Positions 37,483 through 45,706 of a stretch of DNA of 64,000 nt are shown here, piece by piece. The DNA lies in contig NZ_CP042906.1 in NCBI RefSeq assembly GCF_008728855.1, positions 3,346,001-3,410,000 of the forward strand, written 5' to 3'. How positions within the stretch are numbered: position 1 is the stretch's first letter; each line of letters begins with the position of its first letter. The notes beneath the pieces were generated by a model, which worked only from the letters and a program-made list of their open reading frames with translations, did no database searches and was not told the origin of the DNA. A program made the position numbers and the translations under genes. This DNA comes from Hypericibacter terrae (GTDB taxonomy: Bacteria > Pseudomonadota > Alphaproteobacteria > Dongiales > Dongiaceae).

Positions 37483-37517
37483 GACAAGCCGAGGCAGGGA
37501 CGAGCAGGTTGCAGGGC

Positions 37518-38624
37518 ATGCCTCGTCACCGCCTCGATGCGCTCGCTTCGCAGATCGGCGGTCGCTGCGAAGGCGATGGCAGCATCGAGGTGGATCGCCC
37601 TTGCGAGCCGGCCGATGCGGGGTCGGCTTTGGATCTGCCGTTGATTTTTTCCACCGAGGCGCTCGGAAAATTGAAACCTGGCGGAGCCTGCGCCGCGCTG
37701 GCGGTCGAAGGCCTCGCCCTTCCTCCTGGCCGCTTCTCCGGCCTCATCCGGGTTGCCCGCCCGCGCTATGCCCTGGCGAAGCTTCTTCCGCTGTTTCTGC
37801 TAACGATCCGTCCCGAACCCGGCATCCATCCGATGGCGATCGTCCACGCCACGGCGCGGGTCGCCCCCGACGTCGCGGTCGGACCCTTCACCCAGATCGG
37901 TGCCGATGTCGAAATCGCCGCCGGATGCGTCCTCGACGGGAATGTCACCGTCGGCGAAAGGTCCCGGCTGGGGGCCGGCTGCAGGCTTCATGGGGGCGTG
38001 CGGCTGGGCCCCGACGTCGTCCTGGGTGACCGGGTCATCCTGCATTTCAACGTCTGCCTGGGGGCGGACGGATTTTCCTATGCCACGCCGGAGCCGGGCA
38101 GCATCGAGGCCTCGGCGGTGGGAAGTCGGGTTCAGGCTCGCAACCATGCCATCGAGCGGATCCCTTCCCTGGGCCGGGTGGTGATCGGCGACGATGTGGA
38201 GATCGGCGCCAACAGCGCCGTCGACCGTGGCACCGTCGGGGATACGGTGATCCTGCGAGGGACCAAAATCGACGATCTGGTCATGATCGGCCATAATTGC
38301 CGCATCGGCGAAGACTGCCTGATTGCCGGACAGGTCGGCATTGCCGGCAGTTGCCAGATCGGAAATCGGGTGGTGCTGGGCGGTCAGGTGGGAATCGCCG
38401 ATCATGTGACCCTCGGCGACGATACAATGGTGATGGCCTCGTCCGGAGTCGGCCGTGACGTGGGGCCCGGAATGGTGGTGGGCGGGACGCCGGCCTTGCC
38501 CCGGCAACAATTTTTCGAGCAGTTGCTTGGCCTTGCGCGGCTCAAGCGAATAGCCGAAGAAATAGGTGGGTTGGCGGAACGAGTCAGGGGCCTGGAGCGT
38601 AGTAAGGACCGGCCCGAGACGTGA
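37518..38624 (+). CDS. lpxD: LpxD-like UDP-3-O-acylglucosamine N-acyltransferase, 368 aa
   Basis: Left-handed beta-helix acyltransferase that transfers an acyl chain from ACP to the amine of a sugar nucleotide. The N-terminal part binds the nucleotide ([21 protein letters not shown]). Hexapeptide repeats fill about 105-330 ([36 protein letters not shown]). Catalytic His259 in [15 protein letters not shown] 37518 is chosen; an in-frame TTG at 37509 has AGGGA 8 bases upstream and cannot be excluded. Next to ACP and ketoacyl synthase genes rather than the usual lpxA/fabZ, so it may be a paralogue for a modified glycolipid. Confidence 0.85.
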
Positions 38625-38645
38625 CCAGCAGGGGAGATCAGGGAA

Positions 38646-38897
38646 GTGATATCGGCTATCGAGGAGAAGGTAATCGAGATTGTCGCCCGGGAAAGTGGTT
38701 TGGACCGGACGCGAATTTCGGGGAACTCGACCTTGAAGGATCTGGATATTCCATCGTTGGATTTCGTGCAGATCATGTTCGCGATCGAGGAAGAGTTCAA
38801 AATCTATCTGCCGACCAACGATCCCCGCGCCGAGACCGGTTCAGTGGCCGGCCTGGTGGCGGAGATCGAGCGGCAGATAGCCGCGAAGACGGCGTGA
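38646..38897 (+). CDS. Acyl carrier protein, 83 aa
   Basis: Carrier of an acyl chain on phosphopantetheine. Four-helix pattern with IEEKVIEIVARESGLD and an acidic second helix (VQIMFAIEEEF). The modified serine is Ser37 in DIPSLDF; the usual DSL is PSL here, a mild departure seen in specialised ACPs. The start is GTG 38646 with GGGGAGATCAGGGAA just upstream. It is 21 bases after the LpxD-like gene and 16 bases before the ketoacyl synthase, so it is cotranscribed with both. Confidence 0.88.
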   Translation: MISAIEEKVIEIVARESGLDRTRISGNSTLKDLDIPSLDFVQIMFAIEEEFKIYLPTNDPRAETGSVAGLVAEIERQIAAKTA

Positions 38898-38913
38898 ACG
38901 CGCGCTCGGGATC

Positions 38914-40128
38914 ATGAACCGCGTCGTCATTACCGGCGCCGGCTGCGTGTCGGCGCTGGGGCCGGACCTCGCGACGACCTGGGCCGGAATGCGCGACGGC
39001 CGGTCGGGGATCGGTCAGCTCGAGGGGCTTCCGCTGGAACGGCTCCGGATCACCATCGGCGCCCAGGTCCGGGGCTTCGATCCGGCGACGCATTTTGCCG
39101 AAAAGAAGCTGGCGCAGTACGACCGCTTCACGCAGTTCGCCCTGGTGGCGGCGCGCGAGGCCGTCAAGCAATCGGGGATCGCGCTGAGCGGTGAGCTGGC
39201 GCGCGGATGCGCGGTGATTGTCGGCACAGGCATTGGCGGCCAAACCACCCAGGACGAGGGGTTTCAACGGCTCTACGGCGAAAAGGCCGACCGCCTCGCG
39301 CCCATGACCGTCCCGCGCGCCATGCCGAGCGCTGCCACCAGCCACGTCTCGATGGAGTTCGGTCTGCGTGGGCCCTCCTTTGGAGTGACCTCGGCCTGCG
39401 CCTCTTCAAATCATGCGATCGCGATCGCCTTCGATATGGTGCGCCTCGGCCGCGCGCCGGCTGCGCTCGCCGGCGGTGCCGAGGCCCCCATGACGCTGGG
39501 CGGGCTCAAGAGCTGGGAGGCGCTGCGGGTCATGTCGCCCGACGGCTGTCGACCGTTCTGCCGCGACCGCCGCGGCATGGTGCTCGGCGAGGGTGCCGGC
39601 ATGTTCCTGCTGGAGCCGCTGGAAAGCGCGCTTGGCCGAGGCGCCCGCCCGCTGGCCGAGTTGGTCGGTGCCGGCATGTCCGCCGACGCGGGCGATCTCG
39701 TGGCACCGTCGGTCGATGGCTGTGCCGCGGCCATCACCGCGGCATTGGCCGATGCCGGACTGGCTCCGGAGCAAATCGGCTATATCAATGCCCACGGCAC
39801 GGCCACGCCGGCCAACGACCCGGCGGAGACCAAGGCCGTTCGGAAGGCCTTCGGCCGCCACGCCGAGCGGCTCGCCATATCCTCGACCAAGGCCGTCCAT
39901 GGCCATGCGTTGGGGGCCGCCGGTGCGATCGAGCTGGTCGCGGTTCTGGGGGTCCTGACGGAGGACGTGCTTCCGCCCACCGCCGGCTTCACCGAGGCCG
40001 ATCCGGAATGCGATCTCGACTATGTTCCCAACCAGGCGCGCAAGGTCGCGGTCGAGGCGGCTCTCTCCAACTCCTTCGCCTTCGGCGGCCTGAATTGCGT
40101 TCTGGCGCTGAAACGCATCGATTCCTAA
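38914..40128 (+). CDS. fabF: Beta-ketoacyl-ACP synthase (KAS II/FabF family), 404 aa
   Basis: Elongating condensing enzyme. Catalytic triad intact: Cys162 in SACASSNHAI, His294 in NAHGTATPAND and His329 in KAVHGHALGAAG, with Lys326. It begins MNRVVITGAGCVSALG and ends with SNSFAFGGLNCVLALKR, full length. It follows the dedicated ACP by 16 bases. Together with the LpxD-like gene it could build a special acyl chain for a sugar lipid, as in very-long-chain lipid A pathways; this is inference. It might equally be a housekeeping FabF. Confidence 0.88.
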   Translation: MNRVVITGAGCVSALGPDLATTWAGMRDGRSGIGQLEGLPLERLRITIGAQVRGFDPATHFAEKKLAQYDRFTQFALVAAREAVKQSGIALSGELARGCAVIVGTGIGGQTTQDEGFQRLYGEKADRLAPMTVPRAMPSAATSHVSMEFGLRGPSFGVTSACASSNHAIAIAFDMVRLGRAPAALAGGAEAPMTLGGLKSWEALRVMSPDGCRPFCRDRRGMVLGEGAGMFLLEPLESALGRGARPLAELVGAGMSADAGDLVAPSVDGCAAAITAALADAGLAPEQIGYINAHGTATPANDPAETKAVRKAFGRHAERLAISSTKAVHGHALGAAGAIELVAVLGVLTEDVLPPTAGFTEADPECDLDYVPNQARKVAVEAALSNSFAFGGLNCVLALKRIDS

Positions 40129-40266
40129 GACAGGGTGACGTGCCAGCGGCTATAGATGCGGGCTGGCCCACGGCTTTGCCACAAGTGGCCCTTCATGGTG
40201 CCTTGTTTTGGTCTAACAATTCCCGATCCTGGGCGCTGAACAAATGGCGTGCCACCCGTGAGGCGA

Positions 40267-41391
40267 ATGCGCAACTCCATCACCGCCGAGCCGGCTGCCG
40301 CATCGCATCGCGGGACCTCTGCATTCCCGACCCACGTTGCGAGCCGGTCTCTCTGCCGAAGGCTGCTTGACGGCTCGAGGCTGTTGGCGCGGGCGCTCTG
40401 CCTCGGTCTCTGCCTGTTCGCGTTGACCGGCCACGTCGAGGGGCAGGAGCTGCGTTATTTCCGCATCGGCACCGGCGCGCCCGAGACCAGTTACTTTCCG
40501 ATCGGGGGCGTCATCGCCAGCGCGGTCTCCAACCCGCCCGGCGCCCGCGACTGCAATCAGGGCGGCAGCTGCGGGGTGCCGGGGCTGATCGCGCTCGCCC
40601 AGACCACCAACGGTTCCATCGACAACCTCACGCAGATCGCGGCGGGCAATCTCGATTCCGGGCTCTGCCAGGCGGACATCGCCGCGGCGGCCGCCAAGGG
40701 CCTGCCCCCCTTCGATGGGAGCCGTGCCATACCGGGCCTGCGGGCCATCGCGAACCTCTATCAGGAGGGCGTGCATGTGGTGGTCCATGCCGATGTCTCG
40801 ATCGACAGCGTGGCCGATCTCAAAGGGCGCCGGGTGGCGATCGGTGAAAAGGGCTCCGATGCGATGGTGACGTCGCTGCTGGTCCTGGGCGCTTATGGCC
40901 TCAACGAAAAGCGAATCAAGCCGGCCTATCTCGATCTCGCCGATGCGACCCAGAAATTCGCCGCGCGCGAGATCGACGCGATCATCACCCTCGGCAGCTA
41001 CCCAATTCCGGCCCTGGTCGATCTGGCCAGCGAAACGCCGATCAAGCTGGTGGCGCTCAATGACGATCAGGCCTCGGCGCTCCGCGAGGCCAATCCCTAC
41101 CTCACCGTGGACCTCATCCCGGCCGGTGCCTATGATGGCGTCGGCAGCACGGTCACGCTCGGCATCGGGGCCCTGTGGGTGGTGGACGAGAAGCTCGATG
41201 CGGAGCTGGTCTATGAGCTGACGCGTGCGCTCTGGCACAAATCGACCCGCCGGCTGCTCGACCAGGCCGGTCCGGTGGGGCAAAAGATCAAGCTCGATGC
41301 CGCGCTGCTGCGGCTGCCGATCCCGCTCCATCCGGGTGCCGCCCGCTATTATGCCGAGTTGGGCAAGGCGCCGGTCGGGACGTCGAACTGA
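40267..41391 (+). CDS. TAXI family TRAP-type solute-binding protein, 374 aa
   Basis: Periplasmic receptor of TRAP-associated extracytoplasmic family. A long N-region precedes a hydrophobic signal segment (LLARALCLGLCLFALTGHVEG), then the TAXI signatures RIGTGAPETSYFPIGGVIASAVS, VHADVSIDSVADLKGRRVAIGEKGSDAM and a C-terminal IPLHPGAARYY. The start is uncertain: GTG 40249, GTG 40258 and ATG 40267 are all in frame with no strong Shine-Dalgarno; ATG 40267 is used. No TRAP permease genes are adjacent, so it is an orphan receptor. Confidence 0.85.
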   Translation: MRNSITAEPAAASHRGTSAFPTHVASRSLCRRLLDGSRLLARALCLGLCLFALTGHVEGQELRYFRIGTGAPETSYFPIGGVIASAVSNPPGARDCNQGGSCGVPGLIALAQTTNGSIDNLTQIAAGNLDSGLCQADIAAAAAKGLPPFDGSRAIPGLRAIANLYQEGVHVVVHADVSIDSVADLKGRRVAIGEKGSDAMVTSLLVLGAYGLNEKRIKPAYLDLADATQKFAAREIDAIITLGSYPIPALVDLASETPIKLVALNDDQASALREANPYLTVDLIPAGAYDGVGSTVTLGIGALWVVDEKLDAELVYELTRALWHKSTRRLLDQAGPVGQKIKLDAALLRLPIPLHPGAARYYAELGKAPVGTSN

Positions 41392-41528
41392 CGTCCACCC
41401 CGGAGTCGCTGCCTCATTTTCAGCGGGAAATGTCTGCCCCGGCGCCGAAGCCCCCTGAGTTTCGGTAGAGGGATCGACCCGACTTTCCCTGGATATCAAT
41501 ACATCTTCCGGGCGCGCACTATCGCAAA

Positions 41529-41557
41529 TTGACACAAGTTGGGGCATCCTCGCTTGT
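41529..41557 (+). promoter_or_regulatory. Possible promoter of the DegT gene
   Basis: TTGACA at 41529-41534, then a 17-base spacer and GCTTGT at 41552-41557 as a weak -10. It lies about 57 bases before the start of the aminotransferase gene at 41614 within a 222-base gap. The -10 element is poor; low confidence. Confidence 0.3.
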
Positions 41558-41613
41558 GCCACTCTGTGACCGCCCTTCCGCAGCCCGGCCTCGTCCCCCA
41601 GGAGCATTGCCTG

Positions 41614-42747
41614 ATGAGCATCCAACTCTTCGTCCCGACCTTCGCCATCGACGAGGTTCTCGCCGAAATTCGCGAATGTCTCGAGCGGGGCTGGACCGGT
41701 TTGGGCTTCAAAACCGTCGAGATCGAGAACCGCTGGAAGGAGCATGTCGGGCTGCCTCATGCCCATTTCCTGAACTCGGCGACGGCGGGCCTGCATCTGG
41801 CGCTGAACGTGTTCAAGGAAGAGTATGGCTGGCAGGAAGGCGACGAGGTCATCACCACGCCGCTGACCTTCGTCTCCACCAATCATGTCATCCTCTATGA
41901 AGGGCTGAAGCCGGTCTTCGCGGATGTCGACGAGTATCTCTGCCTGGATCCTCGGTCCGTCGCCCAGCGCATCACGCCGCGGACGAAGGCGCTGATCTTC
42001 GTGGGGCTCGGCGGCAATACCGGCCGCCTCGAAGAGATCCAGACGCTATGCGCCGCCCATGACATCAAGCTGATCCTGGACGCCGCCCATATGGCCGGCA
42101 CGCGCCTCCATGACCGCACGCCCACCGGCGACGCGACCGTCTATTCGTTCCAGGCGGTCAAAAACCTGCCGACCGCGGATTCGGGAATGATCTGCTTCGA
42201 GGACGGGCGCCTGGATGCGATCGCCCGCAAGAAGACCTGGCTCGGGATCAACAAGGACACCTATACGCGCACCAGCGAAGGCGGGACCTACAAGTGGCTC
42301 TATGACGTCGAGTATGTCGGATTCAAATATCACGGCAATTCGATCATGGCCGCGATCGCCCTGGCGCAGCTTCCCTATCTCGAACGGGACAATGACCGCC
42401 GGCGCGAGATCGCTGCGCGGTACGACGCGGGTTTTCGCGGATTGGAAGCGATCTCGACGATTCCCGTGGCCCCGGGCTGCGTCTCGTCGCGCCACCTCTA
42501 TCAGATCGCCGTCGAGAAGCGCGACCAGATGATGGTCCATCTCAACGAATGCGGCGTGTTTCCCGGCGTGCATTACCTGTCGAACACCGACTACCGCATG
42601 TTCGCGGACTATCGCGGGCTTTGCCCCAATGCCGATCGCATGTCGGAGCGGATCATTTCGCTGCCGCTGCATCTTCGGCTCACCGATGCCGATGTGGACA
42701 AGGTCATCGAGAGCGTGATCCGCTTCCGCATCGGCATGGTTGCCTGA
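41614..42747 (+). CDS. DegT/DnrJ/EryC1 family sugar aminotransferase, 377 aa
   Basis: PLP enzyme, probably adding an amino group to a nucleotide keto-sugar. Catalytic Lys183 in SFQAVKNLPTADSG, Asp156 and nearby His159 in LILDAAHMAG. Also TTPLTFVSTNHVILYEGLKPVF, and a C-terminal VHYLSNTDYR segment. ATG 41614 is preceded by GGAG with 9-base spacing; an extended frame to 41539 is poor. Full length. It precedes the GNAT gene by 22 bases, so an amino sugar may be made and then acylated. Confidence 0.9.
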   Translation: MSIQLFVPTFAIDEVLAEIRECLERGWTGLGFKTVEIENRWKEHVGLPHAHFLNSATAGLHLALNVFKEEYGWQEGDEVITTPLTFVSTNHVILYEGLKPVFADVDEYLCLDPRSVAQRITPRTKALIFVGLGGNTGRLEEIQTLCAAHDIKLILDAAHMAGTRLHDRTPTGDATVYSFQAVKNLPTADSGMICFEDGRLDAIARKKTWLGINKDTYTRTSEGGTYKWLYDVEYVGFKYHGNSIMAAIALAQLPYLERDNDRRREIAARYDAGFRGLEAISTIPVAPGCVSSRHLYQIAVEKRDQMMVHLNECGVFPGVHYLSNTDYRMFADYRGLCPNADRMSERIISLPLHLRLTDADVDKVIESVIRFRIGMVA

Positions 42748-42769
42748 GCGCCCCGAAGATGGCGTTCGT

Positions 42770-43438
42770 GTGAGCGGATTCTGGCCAGCGGCAGAGCGGA
42801 AGCTGGCGGACGCGAAGTCCACCGCCCATCCTCTCCGCTTTCAAATTCGCGACGAGGCCGGCGGCACCGTGGCGACCTTGCGTTCCCTGACGACCTCCGA
42901 TCTCGGCGACGACCGGCTGGTCGCGACCCTCGCCCGCTGGCGCGAGGAGAACAAGGATCGCTTCCTCACCATCGTGCCGTTCGATCCGGAAGGTACCCGT
43001 CGATGGATGGAGCGATTTCCGGTAGGCGACCCGAAGCGCATCCTGTTCCTGGTCGGGGGGCCGGATGGCGAACTGCTGGGCCATTATGGGTTGCTGCTCA
43101 TCGGACCCGGCGAGGCGGAGATCGACAATACGCTCCGCGGCTCAGTGCGCTGCCCGGCCGGTTTGTTTGGCCAAGTGGCGCAAACAATCATTCGCTGGGC
43201 GATTGACGAGCTTGGCGCCCGGAGGCTGATCGTCCGGGTCATGTCCAACAATCCCGTCGCCATCCGGCATCAGGAGCGCAATGGTTTTGCCCAAGAGAGC
43301 GTCTTGCCGCTGCGTGAAATCCATGAGGGTGACATTATCCGCCGCGAAGTGGTCGACGACCCGTCCCGTTCAAATCTGCCTTTCGGCCTGACGGTGCTGT
43401 CCTATCCGATCGCAAGGGAACGGCCGGCGAGGCACTGA
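42770..43438 (+). CDS. GNAT family N-acetyltransferase, 222 aa
   Basis: Acetyl-CoA-dependent acyltransferase. Core seen in LGHYGLLLIGPGEAEIDNTL, followed by AQTIIRWAIDELGARRLIVRVMSNNPVAIRHQERNGFAQE, the typical acetyl-CoA binding and C-terminal half. The N-terminal ~50 residues are extra. GTG 42770 is used; TTG 42740 is an in-frame alternative overlapping the DegT stop. Immediate coupling to the DegT aminotransferase suggests N-acylation of an amino sugar, as in rare-sugar pathways. This is inferred from position. Confidence 0.8.
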   Translation: MSGFWPAAERKLADAKSTAHPLRFQIRDEAGGTVATLRSLTTSDLGDDRLVATLARWREENKDRFLTIVPFDPEGTRRWMERFPVGDPKRILFLVGGPDGELLGHYGLLLIGPGEAEIDNTLRGSVRCPAGLFGQVAQTIIRWAIDELGARRLIVRVMSNNPVAIRHQERNGFAQESVLPLREIHEGDIIRREVVDDPSRSNLPFGLTVLSYPIARERPARH

Positions 43439-43588
43439 CGAAAGCGTGGCACGAACTCCGGCCGTGGCCCTCCCGCGCCGATCGGGAGTCGACTCTGGGC
43501 CGGGCCGCCTTCTCAACCCCTTGACCGCGGATCGCGGCCCACGTTACTTGCTGCAGCCCCACTCAAATAAAGGCGTCCTCCGTCTCTC

Positions 43589-45706
43589 ATGGTCAAGGTT
43601 GCGAATCTCGTCGCCGACACGATCTGGTCTCCGGGCGCCGGTTACAACGACAAATCCCCCGAACTCTCGATCTTCCTTCCGACCTTCAGGCGCGCAGCCG
43701 ATGGCCTGCTGCAGAAGGTGCTGCAGAGCATCGCGACGCAAAGCTTCCGTGATTTCGAGCTGATTGTGATCGACGACGCTTCGACCGACGGGAGCGCCGA
43801 CATTGTCCGGGACTGGATGGCACGCGACCCCCGGATAAGCTGCCTGACCCATCCGCGCAATGTCGGACTGCCGGCGGTCTCGGAGTTCGAGGCCTACCTC
43901 AAATCGCGCGGCCGCTTCATCGGCTTCGCGTTCGACGATTTCGTCTATGAGCCGGGGGCCTTCGAAGCGCTGATCAAAGCCGCGCGCGCAAATCCGGAAG
44001 CGCTGGTTCACGGTTACGCCGAAATGGTCGGCTGGAGCGGACCGCATCAGGTTCTAGGGCGGTCCGGCGTGCCGGCCGCGCGGTTGTGGCATGATAACTT
44101 CATTGCCAACGCCACAGTGTTCATGCCGAGGCAGATCATCGAGGCGATCGGCTTCTACGATCCGCACATCATGGCGGCGCGCAATTGCGACTGGGATCTG
44201 TGGCGGCGCGCGCAGCGTCATTATCCGTTCGTATCGGTTCCGGTCTTTATTGGACGCGAGCACGGCACCCAACGTGCGGACAGCCTCGGCCGCACCTATC
44301 CGGTCTTTCAGGAGGTCATGTTCGAGTTCTACGGGAGCCGGTCGAACGACCTGCTGCTGCCGAAGAACCTGCCCGAGCGGGACGTTTGGACCGTGCCGAC
44401 GCCGTCGTCCTTCGCCATGGCCGCCGCCGCAATGAGCACCCGGAAGTTTTTCCGGAACAAGGCTTGGGCGTCATTGGAGATAGTGGCCGACACCGCCGAG
44501 CTCCAGCGCTTGATCGAACCGAAGCGTCCCATTATTGGCGTTGCGGGCAGCCTTGAAGCAACCATCTCCTTGTGCTTCGACGGCGTTCGGGATCGCTTCG
44601 CCGCGAATCTGAGATTCGTGGATTTCCAGGCCCTGGCGTCAGTTCAGGCGCAGCATGTCCTGTTGTGCGATGCCGTCATCGTCTCGCGCGGGCTTCTCGA
44701 TCCGAACGCGGAACGCGTGATCAGCCTCTGCACGAACACGGGGATCGACCTCTATTACCTCGCCGACGACAATCCGATCCTGATCGCGATGGAGAACCCG
44801 GAGCTATCCCGATATCGTCTCGAAAATGTCAGGGCTGTGCTGAAGCCCTTCAAGGGCGTTCTGGCGACGTCGCCCCGGCTGGTCGACTACTATCGAGCCA
44901 ACGACTTGCACCCGAATGTGCAGCTGTTCGGTCCCATTCTGGACCAGGCCACACTGGGAAAGATGCGAAGAATTGCGGCAGAACCGCATCCCGAGCAACT
45001 GCGAGTGGGATTCATCGGCGGCAAATTCCGTGAATCCGACCTTCGCGATCGGGTCTTTCCGGCGCTTCAGGAACTGTCGCACCGCATCGAGATCGAGTTC
45101 TTTGCCCGAGGAAGCGAAGGCTTGCGCCGAGATCCACCGCCTTCGCCCCTTGGCTGGCGCCCGATCCCGTTCGCCATGTCCTATGACGACTTCTTGCAGA
45201 GATGGCGTGCGCTCGGCATCGACATCCTGATTCATCCCAAGGGCCAGACCCTCAATATCGACTACAAGACCCACAGTATTTTGCTGACGGCGCTCTATCT
45301 CGGCGCCGTCCCGATCGTCTGCGACGAGTCCGCCTTTCGCGACATCGGCGAAAACGAAGGTATCCTGAAGGTCAGCGACGGACCGGGCGGTTTCGCCGTC
45401 GCACTTGAGCGAGCATCCAATCCCGACTTCCGGCAGGAGATGCTCCGCCGGCTCGAAGCATTTTGCCGCCGTAATTTCGATCCGGCGGTCAACGAACAGG
45501 CGCTACAGAAAATCAGCGACGCGACCCGTCCAACCGATCTGATCGGGTACTTTGAGCGGCTTTCCCGGGAATGCGCACGGTTGTCCCATCTCGCGAGCGA
45601 GGCTAATAGCCAGTTCAATTCCCGCGCGTTCAAGCTGGCGTTGAAGGTGCGCCACGTCGCTTCGTGGCTGCGTCGGGCCGGGAGCCTGCTCAGAAGCCGC
45701 CCCTGA
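43589..45706 (+). CDS. Large glycosyltransferase (GT2 plus C-terminal glycosyltransferase-like part), 705 aa
   Basis: N-terminal GT-A domain about residues 25-250: LSIFLPTFRRAADGLLQKVLQSIATQS, IVIDDASTDGSADIV, and a DxD-like FAFDDFVYEPGAF. The C-terminal half (about 310-680) resembles a GT-B-like group 1 glycosyltransferase, with RVGFIGGKFRESDLRDRV, and LTALYLGAVPIVCDESAFRDIG near 580-600. A cytoplasmic enzyme with a basic tail ending RRAGSLLRSRP. Two domains may give two transfer steps. ATG 43589. It ends the LpxD/ACP/KAS/DegT/GNAT run, supporting synthesis of a surface glycan or glycolipid. Confidence 0.85.
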   Translation: MVKVANLVADTIWSPGAGYNDKSPELSIFLPTFRRAADGLLQKVLQSIATQSFRDFELIVIDDASTDGSADIVRDWMARDPRISCLTHPRNVGLPAVSEFEAYLKSRGRFIGFAFDDFVYEPGAFEALIKAARANPEALVHGYAEMVGWSGPHQVLGRSGVPAARLWHDNFIANATVFMPRQIIEAIGFYDPHIMAARNCDWDLWRRAQRHYPFVSVPVFIGREHGTQRADSLGRTYPVFQEVMFEFYGSRSNDLLLPKNLPERDVWTVPTPSSFAMAAAAMSTRKFFRNKAWASLEIVADTAELQRLIEPKRPIIGVAGSLEATISLCFDGVRDRFAANLRFVDFQALASVQAQHVLLCDAVIVSRGLLDPNAERVISLCTNTGIDLYYLADDNPILIAMENPELSRYRLENVRAVLKPFKGVLATSPRLVDYYRANDLHPNVQLFGPILDQATLGKMRRIAAEPHPEQLRVGFIGGKFRESDLRDRVFPALQELSHRIEIEFFARGSEGLRRDPPPSPLGWRPIPFAMSYDDFLQRWRALGIDILIHPKGQTLNIDYKTHSILLTALYLGAVPIVCDESAFRDIGENEGILKVSDGPGGFAVALERASNPDFRQEMLRRLEAFCRRNFDPAVNEQALQKISDATRPTDLIGYFERLSRECARLSHLASEANSQFNSRAFKLALKVRHVASWLRRAGSLLRSRP

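Follow-up and report, generated by a model that had tools for sequence, protein, structure and literature searches.

Positions 37518-40128 of the window (the whole 64,000-nucleotide stretch of DNA analysed here) probably represent a conserved lpxD-acp-KAS cassette which, judging from the sequence, would both carry out N-acylation in ordinary lipid A biosynthesis and supply this step. LpxD is the enzyme of an early, central step in the making of lipid A, the anchor of outer-membrane LPS. The proposal is based on the observed identity of the genes, the single lpxD of the genome, its empty canonical site, the conserved linkage, the joint clades, and the intact catalytic residues.

Gene content of the cassette and the lipid A pathway

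The first gene, lpxD (37518..38624, + strand), was assigned to a UDP-3-O-acyl-glucosamine N-acyltransferase of a long-loop clade; its product of 368 amino acids, counted from the ATG at 37518, scored 272.2 bits against the TIGR01853 profile lipid_A_lpxD (cut-off, 242.5), with the HMM spanning residues 15-348. In the alignment, its His259 (His262 if the TTG at 37509 is the start) coincided with H239, the catalytic residue of the E. coli enzyme, and the counterparts of the oxyanion residue G257 and of D232 were also retained. The predicted structure, with a mean pLDDT of only 64.5, comprised an N-terminal uridine-binding domain, a left-handed beta helix, and a C-terminal helix, and the nearest folds in the PDB were all LpxD. 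Acyl transfer from acyl-ACP to UDP-3-O-acyl-GlcN is its predicted activity.

After a gap of 21 bp follows the gene of a putatively dedicated acyl carrier protein (ACP; 38646..38897, + strand), which gave 30 bits against PF00550 (cut-off, 20.8) and carries the phosphopantetheine site Ser37 in the motif DIPSLD, and another 16 bp downstream lies that of a cassette-specific, FabF-like beta-ketoacyl-ACP synthase (KAS; 38914..40128, + strand) with a complete FabF-type Cys-His-His active site (C162, H294, and H329). The KAS score of 435.8 bits was below the TIGR03150 FabF equivalog cut-off (493.75) and above that of the KAS II subfamily PRK07314. The reading frames, active-site residues, and 16-21-bp spacing given for these three genes in the initial annotation were thus confirmed, as was the PSL motif pointed out in the ACP; PSL is also present in the genome of the same genus (G001), ASL or ESL in other relatives, and mostly DSL or DSM in the Rhodobacterales.

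A search of the whole window genome (one contig, 99.65% complete) with TIGR01853 returned the window lpxD as the sole match above the cut-off, the remaining matches being LpxA, encoded in the lpx operon, and short matches to hexapeptide-repeat proteins. The canonical operon has the order rseP-bamA-skp-fabZ-lpxA-lpxI-lpxB-gloA, and its skp-fabZ interval of about 170 bases, exactly where lpxD is located in E. coli K-12, contained no lpxD; the second lpxD for which the initial annotation had wished the lpxA/fabZ cluster to be inspected was therefore not found there. Since this is the sole lpxD and lpxA, lpxB, lpxC, and lpxI are all present, the gene content indicates that the window gene would be the LpxD of the pathway.

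The window genome also harbors acpXL-type genes (an ACP, a FabZ, two KASs, and a dehydrogenase) at L255:6871-11301 (G000:C1, about 1366870-1371300), which suggests very-long-chain lipid A acyl groups like those of rhizobia. The ACP and KAS of the cassette were themselves considered as an acpXL system, and this assignment was rejected because the acpXL-type genes lie elsewhere in the genome. Within the family of the window genome (f1), none of 13 other genomes (G004-G016) had a real LpxD match; lpxC was absent from all nine searched and lpxB from all four searched, and several of these genomes were 100% complete. It seems that most of the family has lost lipid A, which the window genome and G001-G003 retain.

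Distribution and relationships of the cassette

The lpxD-acp-KAS order was also found in G001 and, within the same family, in G003. In the order of genome G038, whose LpxDs nest in the tree among named Rhodobacterales loci that agree on the cassette, exactly one LpxD was detected in each of 61 genomes, never adjoining lpxA among the matches listed, and ACP and KAS genes lay directly downstream of lpxD at all 30 loci read. Throughout this sample of 61 Rhodobacterales genomes, the cassette takes the place of the canonical lpxD. Its upstream neighbour in this order is a conserved, L,D-transpeptidase-looking gene, as judged by eye and not by profile. Outside the Rhodobacterales, the cassette was found in at least six families, including that of the window; among its carriers are Azospirillum sp. 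SYSU D00513 and, representing four further families, G172, G143, G169, and G159. Because it recurs at 30 of 30 loci of another order and in several further families, the linkage is far beyond chance.

The class was sampled with 86 alphaproteobacterial genomes, one per family, of which 74 gave matches, and low-scoring or unlinked cases were then read. The other 12 representatives, such as the large complete genome G144 (5.4 Mb, one contig), had no LpxD at E <= 1e-14. Each of the 11 named genomes tested had one LpxD. Members of the same LpxD clade stand alone in G153, G166, and G132, have no adjacent ACP or KAS gene in G002 and at L028, L038, L039, L257, L258, and L260, and are accompanied by an ACP only at L037 and L085, the latter from Paracoccus alkenifer, where the 21 kb read contained no KAS match. 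LpxD function thus does not strictly depend on the ACP and KAS, and G159, which possesses a canonical lpxD in addition to the cassette, indicates that the cassette need not always provide the main enzyme.

In the trees, all of which were built in quick mode, the cassette LpxDs formed one clade (SH-aLRT 100) separate from the fabZ-linked alphaproteobacterial LpxDs, with the LpxDs of Gastranaerophilales falling inside or beside it. The clade is tied to lipid A by a member in G023, whose gene has its place in the lipid A operon, flanked by lpxB and gloA. The cassette KASs likewise clustered away from FabF, acpXL-type, and other KAS paralogues, with a support of 99 when the long-branch paralogue L205 was included and 60 without it.

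The two groups of LpxD also differ in the length of the stretch that connects the position of E. coli F183 to the strand following it, which is 32-36 residues in all 53 cassette LpxDs and 15-18 in all 21 fabZ-linked ones. The resulting insertion of 17-21 residues lies beside the acyl site at F183, a residue situated near the acyl beta-hydroxyl in E. coli LpxD complexes (PMC6286764); in the model of the window LpxD, this segment (residues 183-219) was of low confidence. The tail past E. coli position 309 was also longer, at about 36 residues versus a median of 24 in the fabZ-linked enzymes. As the ACP-recognition helix known from the P. aeruginosa and E. coli enzymes (PMC6820557) is part of this C-terminal end of LpxD, the longer tail would fit matching to a particular ACP.

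Two further positions drew attention. Rhodobacterales cassette LpxDs stand out at E. coli H276, a contact of the UDP phosphate where an Ala substitution reduces kcat by a factor of 32 (PMC6286764): Asn occupies this position in 44 of the 53 cassette LpxDs, and the window LpxD keeps His. Loss of beta-hydroxyl recognition in Rhodobacterales through this substitution was considered and dropped, since in the E. coli enzyme H276 is at the UDP pyrophosphate and it is D232 and Q236 that are at the beta-hydroxyl (PMC6286764), D232 being kept in every LpxD aligned. The ruler position M290 is often Lys in Rhodobacterales cassette LpxDs and Gly in the window; an argument for long chains from this position was likewise abandoned, because Gly is also usual there in fabZ-linked alphaproteobacterial LpxDs.

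Proposed function and alternative explanations

A KAS makes 3-oxoacyl-ACP, which FabG reduces and FabZ subsequently dehydrates, and LpxD uses the 3-hydroxyacyl-ACP. Since the ACP and KAS genes adjoin lpxD, their products would most simply supply the donor of LpxD. We infer the feeding of LpxD by this pair, the chain identity, and a shielding role, and propose the following course: the KAS would condense malonyl-ACP with an acyl chain, the 3-oxoacyl product would be carried on the cassette's own ACP and normally be reduced to 3-hydroxyacyl by the housekeeping FabG, and LpxD would transfer the chain to the amino group of UDP-3-O-acyl-glucosamine, while the private ACP would keep it from FabZ and phospholipid synthesis. 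At this early step, lipid A synthesis normally draws on the common pool of fatty acids; should the cassette indeed feed LpxD, the step would have a private supply instead, and this in a major order of bacteria, that of Rhodobacter, a genus whose lipid A was the inspiration for the TLR4 antagonist eritoran (PMC5923411). A search of the open-access literature, with subscription papers outside its scope, found no description of the cassette.

An unlikely but conceivable variant is that the cassette makes 3-oxoacyl amides, LpxD taking the KAS product off the dedicated ACP before reduction by FabG. According to established enzymology, the product of a KAS is a 3-oxoacyl-ACP; moreover, all sampled Rhodobacterales carry the cassette, 3-oxo fatty acids are reported from the lipid A of both R. 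sphaeroides and R. capsulatus (PMC5923411), and the loop insertion adjoins F183 at the beta-hydroxyl site (PMC6286764). The conservation of the beta-hydroxyl contact D232 throughout the alignment speaks against it, however, as does the case of the gammaproteobacterium Spiribacter salinus, where just one of the two sugars carries 3-oxo-14:0 (PMC5923411), a one-sidedness that suggests a later or selective step. Lipid A with 3-oxo chains also occurs in Halorhodospira. That Rhodobacter lipid A owes its amide-linked 3-oxo-14:0 to the cassette, by way of unreduced chains handed to LpxD from the private carrier, is correspondingly doubtful. The cassette offers a direct genetic test for the origin of the unusual amide-linked chains in Rhodobacter-type lipid A.

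The ACP and KAS might instead be general fatty-acid genes that are co-transcribed with lpxD by chance and have no dedicated role, as the clade members lacking them as neighbours could indicate. This is improbable, because the gene order is kept across several families, the KAS groups away from the housekeeping FabF, and a housekeeping ACP-FabF pair exists at a separate locus of the window genome (C1:1703653-1705200).

The sugar genes farther downstream are assigned to a different module. The DegT/DnrJ/EryC1 sugar aminotransferase (41611..42747, +; PF01041), the GNAT acetyltransferase (42740..43438, +, start uncertain; PF13302), and the two-domain glycosyltransferase (GT; 43589..45706, +; PF00535) were named correctly in the initial annotation; the C-terminal part of the last (about residues 312-650) matched GT-B folds in a model that was confident in that part only and poor outside it, and no relatives of the GT were found in the viral contigs searched. 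That annotation had, however, omitted the gene of a TAXI-family TRAP solute-binding protein (40249..41391, +) with no evident lipid A role, which lies between the KAS and DegT genes, so that the two blocks are not contiguous. In G001-G003, too, the TAXI gene is found close to lpxD or KAS. In G001, the gene after KAS is TAXI, sugar genes are lacking there, and DegT, GNAT, and GT (87, 75, and 58% identity) are found together at about 5.78 Mb of C1, 3.9 Mb in coordinates from lpxD at 1.91 Mb; the trio was also absent from the lpxD loci of G002 and G003. These positions indicate that DegT-GNAT-GT forms a module of its own, which probably serves a surface glycan; near it, G001 encodes another large GT-like protein, 1101 aa in length (L179:3680-6985, - strand). 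The acyl-making and acyl-transfer unit originally envisaged, lpxD-acp-KAS, is inherited together; the downstream genes do not belong to it.

According to the original suggestion, all six proteins may act jointly to produce a special N-acylated lipid with an amino sugar, different from lipid A. In its favor one may cite their location on one strand within 8.2 kb and the pairing of the cassette with a canonical lpxD in G159, by which a role as second LpxD is possible in some lineages. The suggestion is very improbable given the two findings that the initial annotation itself had named as refuting it, namely the sole lpxD of the window genome and the remote trio in G001, and given also the intervening TAXI gene and, in Rhodobacterales, conserved downstream flanks whose genes, judged by eye rather than by profile, include no evident sugar gene.

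Comparison with known systems

The cassette LpxD shares with the canonical enzyme, encoded in the order skp-lpxD-fabZ-lpxA in E. coli and most alphaproteobacteria, the TIGR01853 family, the catalytic His, the oxyanion Gly, D232, and the pathway. It differs in belonging to another clade, in its 17-21-residue insertion, in its location outside the operon and ahead of an ACP and a KAS, and in the replacement of F41 with Leu, to which the window LpxD adds that of Q236 with Met. Like the housekeeping acpP-fabF pair, the cassette has an ACP followed by a FabF-type KAS; unlike it, it lies at a separate locus and its KAS belongs to a separate clade.

In the known system for very-long-chain acylation of lipid A, acpXL-fabZXL-fabF2XL-fabF1XL-adh-lpxXL (PMC11901934), a dedicated ACP and KAS are similarly linked to a lipid A acyltransferase. 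No fabZ, second KAS, dehydrogenase, or LpxXL gene was found beside the cassette in the window, and its acyltransferase is LpxD instead of LpxXL, with a single KAS. By analogy, lpxD-acp-KAS most likely works in the manner of the acpXL system, but would serve the primary amide acylation of lipid A.
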